A stretch of 64,000 bases of DNA from Candidatus Woesearchaeota archaeon (GTDB lineage: Archaea > Nanobdellota > Nanobdellia > Woesearchaeales > JACPJR01). The stretch's first letter is position 1. The number at the start of each line of letters is the position of its first letter. The position numbers and the translations under genes are program-made. The notes under the pieces were generated by a model that was not told where the DNA came from, ran no database searches, and saw only the letters and a program-made list of their open reading frames with translations. Positions 9,366 through 46,158 of the stretch are shown here, piece after piece. The stretch lies in contig JACPJR010000010.1 of assembly GCA_016187565.1 (NCBI GenBank), forward strand, positions 1-64,000. Direction: 5' to 3'.

Positions 9366-9378
9366 TCACCAAAAATCA

Positions 9379-9544
9379 AGCTTCATCCAAAAATCCGCTA
9401 ACGCTTAAGTTAGCAGCTTCAAAGTCCTTGATGGTATCTTTGAAGTCCGACATTCCCCGTAAGGGACATCCCCCTTGTCGGTTGGATTCAATCATTTGAT
9501 GGGACTTTGACTTGAGGCTGCTAACCCTTTTTTTGGATGAAGCT
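9379..9544 (+). mobile_element. Structured MITE-like element, copy 1, with 9-bp target duplication
   Basis: The ends AGCTTCATCCAAAAA (9379-9393) and its exact complement (9530-9544) form 15-bp terminal inverted repeats. Inside are GTTAGCAGC (9409-9417) with GCTGCTAAC (9517-9525), TCAAAGTC (9419-9426) with GACTTTGA (9503-9510), and CCGACA (9447-9452) with TGTCGG (9476-9481). These enclose a CCCCGTAAGGGAC core that can form a GTAA tetraloop. The flanks CAAAAATCA at 9370-9378 and 9545-9553 are identical, as expected of a target-site duplication. It has no ORF. It matches the reverse complement of 45492-45654. Confidence 0.85.
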
Positions 9545-9621
9545 CAAAAATCATTAAAACATATTAAGAAGATTGATTCCTTCATTATCAAATTCAAATT
9601 GCGTTAAAAAAAGAGGTGGAG

Positions 9622-16066: not shown

Positions 16067-16180
16067 ACGGCTGTAGTCTAGCGGCAGGACACGACCCTCC
16101 CATAACCTTAGCGTACCATATCCTGTGGGTAGTGTTGTTGAAGAGAGGTCGGGACCCGGGTTCAAATCCCGGCAGCCGTA
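16067..16180 (+). tRNA. tRNA-Gly(CCC) with a 43-nt intron
   Basis: Acceptor ACGGCTG (16067-16073) pairs with CAGCCGT (16173-16179), with discriminator A at 16180. The T arm is CCGGG-TTCAAAT-CCCGG (16156-16172). The anticodon stem CGACC (16092-16096) pairs with GGTCG (16147-16151). The loop holds CCC at 16099-16101, preceded by T33 and followed by A37. About 43 nt (near 16103-16145) interrupt the loop after position 37, the canonical archaeal intron site. The mature length would be 71 nt. CCA is not encoded. Confidence 0.9.
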
Positions 16181-22295: not shown

Positions 22296-23549
22296 TTACG
22301 GTGCAAGTGTTAAGGTGATCTCTCCGATACCTTGAATGCTTCCAACAAGCAGTCCGTTGTTACGATCAAGCCTCATTTGAGAAGTATCCCCTTCTTTCTG
22401 AAGACTGAAGCTTATGATATCTAAAGACTCATGCACATTATAAAGGAGATAAAGCTCGTCTTCAACTCGCAAGAACCCACTATAGTAAAAGGAAGCATTA
22501 ATCTCCTCAGAAGAGCTTTCCAGTTGCTCAAGATTTGCTTTTGGTACTTTTATTTTCCTTGTGATAAGAATTTTGATCTTTTTGTTATCTAAATCGGGTG
22601 CAATGCCTGTGGCTTTTATTCGTTCACCAATTCCCACATTTGTCTGATTATAGAACGTAGATATATTCCGTTGAAGATCAGTACTTTGATCGGGCTGATA
22701 GGTAAGAGTGTTAAAAAAGATAATTGTTTGTCTATGCGTAGATGTAGTCGTAGGACTGGCATCGATTACGTCATGAGGCGCACTACCTTTTTGATTATCG
22801 CTTGCTGCGTCAAGTTCTTCTGTCAACGAATTAAGTGGTTCGGGTGTCGTTTTGCTCTTGTTCTCCTGAGAGGTATTCTCAGGAGGGGTTGGATCTTCAC
22901 AATCGTCTGGGCAATTTAACCATGTCTCATTTTGATCACACGTTCCATCGCCACAGATTGAGCTATTTTGTGGAAGAAAGCCACATGCTCCTTCTTGACA
23001 AGTTGCATTATACTCACTACAGCTAACCGTTTCTTTGAATAAATAAGTGTCATTGAGACAGGAGTATTCAATAAGAACCTCGTTCTGACAGTAATCAGTA
23101 ATAGATCCGTTTGAAGAATTAACATACCCTTTGAGAAAATAATTAGATCCGTTATCAGTTTCATAACAAAAACTCGGCTGAGGTTCTTTACAGTCCTTTG
23201 GGCAATTTAACCATGTCTCATTTTGATCACAGGTTCCATCGCCACAGATTGAGCTATTTTGTGGAAGAAAGCTACATGCTCCTTCTTGACAAGTTGCATT
23301 ATACTCACTACAGCTAACCGTTTCTTTGAATAAATAAGTGTCATTGAGACAGGAGTATTCAATAAGAACCTCGTCCTGACAGTAATCAGTAATAGATCCG
23401 TTTGAAGAATTAACATACCCTTTGAGAAAATAATTGGATCCGTTATCAGTTTCATAACAAAAACTCGGCTGAAAAGCTGAGATCGTAGCTAAGAAGATAA
23501 TTACTAGGCTAAAGCTTGCTGCTACCTTAACCAAAGATGTTTTATACAT
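22296..23549 (-). CDS. Cys-rich surface protein with a near-identical 97-aa tandem duplication
   Basis: A 417-aa exported protein with a signal sequence (residues 1-26). Residues 27-123 and 124-220 are the same 97-aa module with only four differences. Each module ends in SICGDGTCDQNETWLNCP, the CGDGxC...E...CPxDC motif common in secreted bacterial and DPANN proteins. The C-terminal half (about 250-417) is beta-rich and ends in a hydrophobic strand without a clear anchor. It is immediately upstream of the membrane-anchored HTH gene on the same transcript and may be the ligand-binding or cell-contact partner of that sensor. Confidence 0.8.
   Translation of the reverse strand: MYKTSLVKVAASFSLVIIFLATISAFQPSFCYETDNGSNYFLKGYVNSSNGSITDYCQDEVLIEYSCLNDTYLFKETVSCSEYNATCQEGACSFLPQNSSICGDGTCDQNETWLNCPKDCKEPQPSFCYETDNGSNYFLKGYVNSSNGSITDYCQNEVLIEYSCLNDTYLFKETVSCSEYNATCQEGACGFLPQNSSICGDGTCDQNETWLNCPDDCEDPTPPENTSQENKSKTTPEPLNSLTEELDAASDNQKGSAPHDVIDASPTTTSTHRQTIIFFNTLTYQPDQSTDLQRNISTFYNQTNVGIGERIKATGIAPDLDNKKIKILITRKIKVPKANLEQLESSSEEINASFYYSGFLRVEDELYLLYNVHESLDIISFSLQKEGDTSQMRLDRNNGLLVGSIQGIGEITLTLAP
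22890..23471 (-). repeat. 291-bp in-frame tandem duplication
   Basis: Positions 23181-23471 and 22890-23180 are two adjacent copies of a 291-bp (97-codon) unit. Only a handful of bases differ, giving D/N, S/G, K/D and K/E changes. The near identity indicates a recent duplication or ongoing homogenisation. Confidence 0.9.
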
Positions 23550-24942: not shown

Positions 24943-24969
24943 GGTTGCTAACTCTTTTTGGATGAAGCT
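24943..24969 (+). mobile_element. Solo right end of the structured MITE-like element
   Basis: GGTTGCTAACTC followed by TTTTTGGATGAAGCT matches the last 29 bases of the element at 9379-9544, apart from a C-to-T change in each arm and a T run two bases shorter. No left end or conserved core is found in the preceding 100 bases. It is probably a decayed or truncated copy. It ends about 25 bp before the TATA element of the translin gene. Confidence 0.6.
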
Positions 24970-45423: not shown

Positions 45424-45491
45424 GGTACCTCTTTTTTTCTTTCTGCTCGTACTACCTACGGTTATATGTTTTTAAACCTTTCCTTTCCTCA

Positions 45492-45654
45492 AGCTCCATC
45501 CAAAAAAGGGTTAGCAGCCTTCAGTCAAACTTCCTTTTTATCAAGCGTCCAGCTGAGAGGGGGGACGTCCCTTACGGGGTCTCTCAGCTTTACTGGAAAG
45601 AAGCAAGAAGTTTGAGCTGCTAACCTGAGCGCTAGCGAATTTTTGGATGGGGCT
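45492..45654 (-). mobile_element. Structured MITE-like element, copy 2, with 9-bp target duplication
   Basis: Read on the minus strand it matches the plus-strand element at 9379-9544. Termini are AGCC(C/T)CATCCAAAAA-type and TTTTTGGATGGAGCT, and GTTAGCAGC and GCTGCTAAC are internal. The hairpin GCTGAGAG/CTCTCAGC (45581-45588 with 45552-45559) encloses the same CCCCGTAAGGGAC core. A second stem is CAAACTTC/GAAGTTTG. The flanking 9-mers CTTTCCTCA at 45483-45491 and 45655-45663 are identical; the right one includes the stop codon of the gene ending at 45661. No ORF is present. Confidence 0.85.
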
Positions 45655-45660
45655 CTTTCC

Positions 45661-46158
45661 TCAGAGGGCCAGAGGTTCCTTTTTCTTTGTCTCTGTCTTT
45701 CTCTCCATTGCTTCTTTGCTGCTTGCACGCTCTTCTACGATATCCTGCACCATTTTGACAACTTCTTGTTGAGTCACGAAATTTACTGGTTCCCAGAGAT
45801 TGATGTATCGCTCAAGTACTTTAACGTCTTCTTTCTTTGCAGACTCTCGCAGCTCAAGGATCAATAGCTTTACTTTATCTTTGACATCAAGCAGCTCTCG
45901 CTTCACTGTTTTGAGGTCATCTTGGAGTATTTTTATCTCTGTGGAAGCCTTTTTCTGCGAGCTGAGCATATTCTGCTCGATAACCTGGATTTTTTTTCGT
46001 AAGTTAAGATCACGCTCTTCTTGAATCCTCACTCTTCTTGATAAATTATTTAATTCATTTCTCAGAAGCATAAGGTCATCAGTACTATTCCCTTTAGAGC
46101 CAAAAATTCCTGCTGACTTCTTTTTCTCCTCTTGGTTCTCTTGGTGAGGTTCAAACAT
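45661..46158 (-). CDS. Coiled-coil protein of FlaC/D/E type (pilus-block accessory)
   Basis: A 165-aa protein with a charged coiled coil over most of its length (VRIQEERDLNLRKKIQ and VKRELLDVKDKVKLLILELRE). The end LERYINLWEPVNFVTQQEV resembles the C-terminal motif of archaellum FlaC/D/E-like proteins. It lies on the minus strand, divergent from the FlaI-like ATPase gene; a TATA-like CTATATAAA near 46208-46220 fits both directions. The mobile element lies 6 nt beyond its stop codon. It likely tethers or regulates the ATPase. Confidence 0.7.
   Translation of the reverse strand: MFEPHQENQEEKKKSAGIFGSKGNSTDDLMLLRNELNNLSRRVRIQEERDLNLRKKIQVIEQNMLSSQKKASTEIKILQDDLKTVKRELLDVKDKVKLLILELRESAKKEDVKVLERYINLWEPVNFVTQQEVVKMVQDIVEERASSKEAMERKTETKKKEPLAL

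Follow-up and report, generated by a model that had tools for sequence, protein, structure and literature searches.

The IS903 group of the IS5 family has short inverted repeats starting GGC and makes 9-bp target-site duplications. The bcr1 repeats of Bacillus cereus, of about 155 bp, are dispersed, structured and thought to be mobile. QMITE2 of Coxiella burnetii is described as a short element with inverted repeats of 23–29 bp, direct repeats of 7–9 bp, a stable hairpin transcript and small RNAs (PMC10969869). The archaeal examples given in that source, a review of prokaryotic MITEs, come from other groups only (PMC10969869). TMECO or BoxC is an intergenic motif of the intrastrand triplex type, for which no association with mobile elements was found (PMC4666352). 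Our literature search for papers linking Woesearchaeota or DPANN archaea with MITEs returned none.

Here we describe repeats from a Candidatus Woesearchaeota genome, first met in a window of 64,000 nucleotides (the whole stretch of DNA that was analysed). We consider it highly probable that they are non-autonomous MITEs of a Woesearchaeota insertion sequence (IS) of IS4/IS5 type, moved by its transposase and carrying a selected fold, most likely at the RNA level. G000 denotes the window's own genome and other G-labels the genomes compared; L-labels denote loci and C-labels contigs.

Copies in the window and across the order

Copy 1, a MITE of 166 bp and of subfamily A, occupies positions 9379..9544, where the minus strand is the sense direction of the parent IS. 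Its terminal inverted repeats (TIRs), AGCTTCATCCAAAAA at 9379..9393 and TTTTTGGATGAAGCT at 9530..9544, are perfect over 15 bases, and the target-site duplication CAAAAATCA stands on its left (9370..9378) and on its right (9545..9553). In its interior, arm 1 is formed by GTTAGCAGC (9409..9417) and its partner side GCTGCTAAC (9517..9525), while the core stem P3 is formed by CCGACA (9447..9452) and TGTCGG (9476..9481); covariation was seen in both stems (see below). The core, CCCCGTAAGGGAC at 9455..9467 on the plus strand, is a C-run with the G-runs of the other strand on its flanks. Copy 2, of 163 bp and of subfamily B, lies at 45492..45654, with the plus strand as the IS sense direction and with the duplication CTTTCCTCA on the left-hand (45483..45491) and right-hand (45655..45663) sides. 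Its core is at 45567..45579 on the minus strand, and its core stem is GCTGAGAG/CTCTCAGC where copy 1 has CCGACA/TGTCGG. These are the only two exact matches of CCCCGTAAGGGAC in the window, one per copy. The sequence-only reading had reported two full copies with these termini, arms and core, flanked by perfect and mutually different 9-bp repeats; all of these are present, exact to the single base. A solo right end (GGTTGCTAACTCTTTTTGGATGAAGCT, 24943..24969, plus strand) directly upstream of a gene is probably the remnant of a third copy, and similar solo ends occur on the G000 contigs C14, C26 and C2. Elsewhere in the window, a tRNA match (16067–16180) spans 114 bases and hence probably marks an intron-containing tRNA gene, and an ORF of 417 aa (22296–23549) has a long internal repeat (CYETDNGSNYFLKGYVNSSNGSITDYCQ twice).

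In the whole of G000 (1.94 Mb, 35 contigs), BLAST with copy 1 gave 12 matches of subfamily A, nine full-length and three truncated; subfamily B has two full copies, copy 2 among them, and subfamily C has four. Together the three subfamilies have 15 full-length copies, with solo ends in addition, and all 15 are intergenic, i.e., placed between ORFs. Elements of subfamily A are near-identical outside a highly variable stretch of about 17 bases, which lies on one side of the internal loop (window 9426–9447 and its counterpart in L002–L009). A coding reading of the right half, in which FEAANLSVSELLDEA is in frame in G000, was rejected as frame and stop are not conserved elsewhere and L186 has a stop.

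The relatives compared were 353 genomes of the Woesearchaeota order and 172 sampled genomes of the same class outside it. The terminal pattern TTTTTGGATGRAGCY was found in 44 of the 353 genomes, belonging to 37 genera, where single matches may be due to chance; the reversed control pattern of the TIR gave no match in the same 353. With a complete element defined by two perfect 10-bp inner ends lying 116–146 bases apart, 51 places were obtained in 12 genomes of 12 genera and 8 families of the order, and none in the 172 genomes outside it. Matches in a named genome collection were likewise Candidatus Woesearchaeota. The length of the complete elements is mostly 161–167 bp even where the interior has diverged; sizes of 131, 143, 156, 206, 336 and 378 bp were also observed. 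No element match was obtained in phage and plasmid collections, nor any transposase match in plasmids, and a match in a viral contig (L075) was dismissed as chance similarity within a phage DNA polymerase gene. One locus of G118 (L116, 813–1146) holds a MITE with a nested palindromic insertion of about 170 bp (CTCTGTCCCGAAT...ATTCGGGACAGAG), which has CTTTAAAC repeats on its flanks; in L114, a copy without this insertion, its empty site can be seen.

Probable parent insertion sequence and evidence for transposition

A complete IS of 1183 bp was found in G248 (L161, 1454–2636) with the duplication TACAGCTTT on both sides. Its ends are the TIR of the MITE, and it codes for a DDE transposase of 314 aa and of IS4/IS5 type. 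In G000, several contigs end in one common repeat bounded by the MITE terminus, and the assembly is broken at IS copies at contig ends of C2, C14, C17, C19, C21, C23 and C35. The end of C19 and the start of C17 are paired by the 9-bp duplication GTTTTTGCT, the end of C35 and the start of C21 by ATTTTTTGC, and the starts of C23 and C14 by GGCGCCATC. This pairing of flanks points to one multicopy element with MITE ends, unassembled between them, and the matching duplications allow three joins between contigs to be proposed. The ORFs near the solo TIRs of G000 yielded no transposase, since the assembly does not resolve the multicopy IS.

The left end of the unassembled IS of G000 codes for the N-terminus MGKAKIRLNPQIDSIRNRVLLERGIKILLS, which recurs at a contig end in G131, a genome of another family; MGKAKIRLNPQIDSIRN denotes the putative parent transposase of G000, which an element of about 1.2 kb is expected to encode. 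With MGKAKIRLNPQIDSIRNRVLLERGIKILLS as query, full ORFs of 316–317 codons were retrieved in G050 and G248. The transposase matches Pfam DDE_Tnp_1 (5.7e-17 and 1.4e-20), and the motif YHQRSKVEAVFSALK/YNQRSKVEAVFSALK, which we take to be the Y(2)R(3)E(6)K signature of IS4/IS5 transposases, was read directly in L161 and L155. The best NCBIfam model is transpos_IS5_2 with 88.3 and 90.9 bits, below the equivalog cut-off of 140, and the IS is therefore named IS5-like only. Judged from the shared ends, an IS of the L161 type is probably the parent of the MITE, and its transposase most likely moves the MITE in trans. The MITE and the IS have their termini in common and little internal sequence, so that an origin of the MITE by simple internal deletion of the IS is no more than a possibility. 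The transposase gave no match in the MITE-rich genomes G118, G247, G168 and G032, where the mobilising enzyme may have been lost, have diverged or lie outside the assembled sequence. Two genes adjoining a TIR, an rve gene in G008 (L143) and a DDE gene in L094, were discarded as lying outside the element.

The different perfect flanks of the two window copies had been taken as a signature of transposition, and this claim holds in new data. Taking the element as bounded by 16-bp ends with A or G as the first base, we examined 59 TIR pairs from many genomes, one of which is a false pairing, leaving 58 copies. Among the 59 pairs, the 9-bp duplication is exact in 31, has at most one mismatch in 39 and at most two in 45, whereas among 236 controls, taken at offsets slightly farther from the element, not one had as few as two mismatches. 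The target sequences are mutually unrelated and A/T-rich in the middle. At one place where G133 and its congener G018 are syntenic, G018 is without the MITE and also without a gene and about 1 kb, the locus being rearranged and its remainder diverged. It thus gave no clean empty site, and none was found in the remaining loci examined. The mobility of the MITE family is well supported by these sequence comparisons. In the proposed mechanism, the parent IS (1.18 kb) would make the 314-aa DDE transposase, which would recognise ends of about 16 bp (GGCTTCATCCAAAAA/TTTTTGGATGAAGCC, starting with A or G) common to the IS and the MITE of about 165 bp. Both would then be inserted via 9-bp staggered cuts, in G000 between genes.

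Pairing of the interior and the core

The interior of the MITE would fold as a nested hairpin with arm 1 beside the termini, further arms and a G/C-rich core hairpin. In an alignment of 29 elements over their full length, arm 1 has changed on both sides, and independently, at several column pairs. The pair 24/141 is AU in 15 elements and GC in 12, 25/140 is GC in 18 and CG in eight, 27/138 is AU in 24 and GC in four, and 28/137 is UA in 13, GC in 11 and CG in three. Variants of arm 1 include GGTTAGCAGC/GCTGCTAACC, GGTTGCCATC/GATGGCAACC, AGGTTGGCACC/GGTGCCAACCT and GGTTAGCGGC/GCCGCTAACC; those of P3, whose letters change freely and still pair, include CCGACA/TGTCGG, GCTGAGAG/CTCTCAGC, GTTGGAC/GTCCAAC and AGCTGACA/TGTCAGCT. 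As the RNAalifold consensus missed most inner stems owing to uncertain alignment, tests were made per element. For 23 dissimilar elements, the mean longest perfect stem of arm 1 is 8.6 bp with its own sides versus 5.8 bp with swapped sides, and that of P3 is 5.5 bp versus 3.1 bp. None of 2000 permutations reached the observed pairing sum for arm 1, and none of 2000 for P3, in a test that ignores relatedness; the many different stem sequences across families make inheritance of a single pairing an unlikely account. The covariation first noticed between the two window copies is thus confirmed, and homologues with unpaired stems, which would have spoken against it, are not the rule: most of the 23 elements have perfect arms of 9 to 11 bp with different sequences. 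P3 is weak (2–4 bp) in L134, L127 and L123, so that its pairing is not universal. Compensating changes that preserve pairing suggest that the fold itself is what is selected, and the fold of the MITE is probably under selection on this comparative evidence.

Fold energies are 3–8 s.d. under those of mononucleotide shuffles, and the mean folding energy is −60.4 kcal/mol for the sense strand versus −57.9 kcal/mol for the complement. In folds of the IS-sense strand made without G-U pairs, the single stem mismatches are G-U in four cases and A-C in one; the complement strand gives the mirror result, with A-C in six and G-U in one. This lean towards G-U hints weakly at RNA in the sense direction, the mismatches being few and the lean not significant. 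An Rfam search gave nothing above threshold except tRNA. For the folded core, we put a role at the RNA level at about even chances.

The hairpin might instead act as DNA and have no function as RNA; the transposase or a host factor would then need it, as a cruciform or single-strand hairpin, for synapsis or excision. Arm 1 begins a few bases inside the TIR and hardly varies in its outer half (GGTT../..AACC), as in a subterminal protein site, and the near-constant length, kept across families, suggests geometry. Nevertheless, TIR-bounded elements that have no core (L130/L103, L131 and L141) show 9-bp duplications with 0–1 mismatches, from which it follows that movement can probably proceed without the core; an IS copy in G121 (C36) has no core either, and the lean towards G-U, weak as it is, favours RNA. 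A purely DNA-level role is on balance unlikely in our estimate, and we return to the RNA-level fold as the preferred reading. Upon read-through from a neighbouring transcript, the RNA of the element would fold into a stable rod that ends, whichever way it is read, at the T-run of the TIR. Transcription could thereby be stopped or insulated and insertions be made less harmful; that the rod insulates its neighbours in this way is the reading which we prefer, as an inference.

The core is not confined to the MITE. A core of related pattern (GGGAGGG, then two to ten bases, CC, four further bases and GGGAAACCCGAGTAG) is found in the right end of the IS of G000 and in long intergenic palindromes without TIR in G052, G053, G233, G242 and G341. 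Stand-alone palindromes around position 1500 of L062, L064, L061, L065 and L068 have a three-way-junction layout with the conserved core GGGAGGG..CC..GGGAAACCCGAGTAG, and in L062 and L064 two of them adjoin. Since the core occurs in palindromes elsewhere and is missing in the IS copy of G121, it may spread separately as a module. It could then be a separate palindromic parasite that invaded an ancestral element with TIR ends as well as the 3′ region of the IS, and that is also free-standing in several Woesearchaeota genomes. For the stand-alone palindromes, however, neither a duplication nor an enzyme was found, and arm 1, which is part of the MITE, covaries as well, so that we regard such a parasite as quite doubtful.

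With its conserved G/C-rich core close to the right end of the IS, the element is also loosely like the omega RNA scaffold, or guide RNA scaffold, of a TnpB-type nuclease, which it would then have to carry. Such an RNA-guided system is extremely improbable: the TnpB/Cas12f zinc-ribbon (PF07282) is absent from the genome, Rfam gave no match for the core, the gene of the parent is a DDE transposase, and TIRs with 9-bp duplications are unlike the duplication-free insertion of IS200/IS605. The same duplications exclude REP/RAYT or IS200 palindromes, i.e., hairpins of Y1 transposases that insert without duplication. An IS200 origin of the core was also rejected, as the IS200-like copies of G000 itself have unrelated ends. 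G000 has five IS200-like TnpA genes or fragments without TnpB (L024 1192–1635, L055–L059).

In most versions of the core, both neighbouring G-runs are possible partners for the C-run. A swap test of this dual pairing gave 2.38 for own and 1.98 for swapped runs (5 of 5000), the runs being often mis-assigned, and is no more than suggestive of a core with two alternative pairings. A bolder proposition is that the MITE lineage is a structured RNA of near-fixed length, selfish or domesticated, in at least eight archaeal families, with compensating stems and a C-run/G-run core switching between two pairings, moved by an IS5-like transposase and also found as stand-alone palindromes; we offer it tentatively, as a possibility that is more likely to fail than to hold.

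Comparison with known systems

The element is of an ordinary kind, a MITE with its IS, although in this lineage the family is a new one. It is short (mostly 161–167 bp), non-coding and multicopy, with 15–16-bp TIRs and duplications, and it has termini in common with an autonomous element (the IS of L161, and the contig ends of G000 with the same N-terminus). The sequence-only reading had known no described family with this combination. As to the kind, this needs softening: MITEs of IS5-like IS are known, and structured, sometimes transcribed MITEs with 7–9-bp repeats are on record, as for QMITE2 (PMC10969869). As to the family, which is new in the lineage, it holds. Above the ordinary, and unusual, is that the fold and the near-constant length are kept across at least eight families. 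MITEs are commonly viewed as short-lived deletion products, whereas the Woesearchaeota MITE keeps its size and fold across families, and it permits a direct test of selection on the RNA or DNA fold of a MITE. In practical terms, the parent IS accounts for several breaks between contigs of the G000 assembly and the MITE is a repeat family usable for annotation.

By description, bcr1 resembles the Woesearchaeota MITE in size, dispersal and structure but is bacterial and has other termini and another duplication length. QMITE2, also compared by description, is alike in its inverted repeats, short direct repeats and hairpin, while its terminal repeats differ and the passages searched in its source report no compensating changes across host families (PMC10969869). 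The likeness to TMECO or BoxC lies in the intergenic position and in a C-run with two G-runs, where one run can pair with either neighbour; the order of runs is C-G-G there and G-C-G in the MITE core, which is shorter and lies within a transposon (PMC4666352).

The closest likeness in enzyme and ends is to the IS903 group of the IS5 family: a DDE_Tnp_1 transposase with the Y(2)R(3)E(6)K (YREK) motif, IS5_2 as the best model, inverted repeats starting GGC and 9-bp duplications, a tentative placement made by features, with the score under the NCBIfam IS5 equivalog cut-off. From that group the Woesearchaeota element differs by its terminal sequence GGCTTCATCCAAAAA, by the lower IS5_2 score and by the covarying fold in its MITEs and in some of the IS copies.
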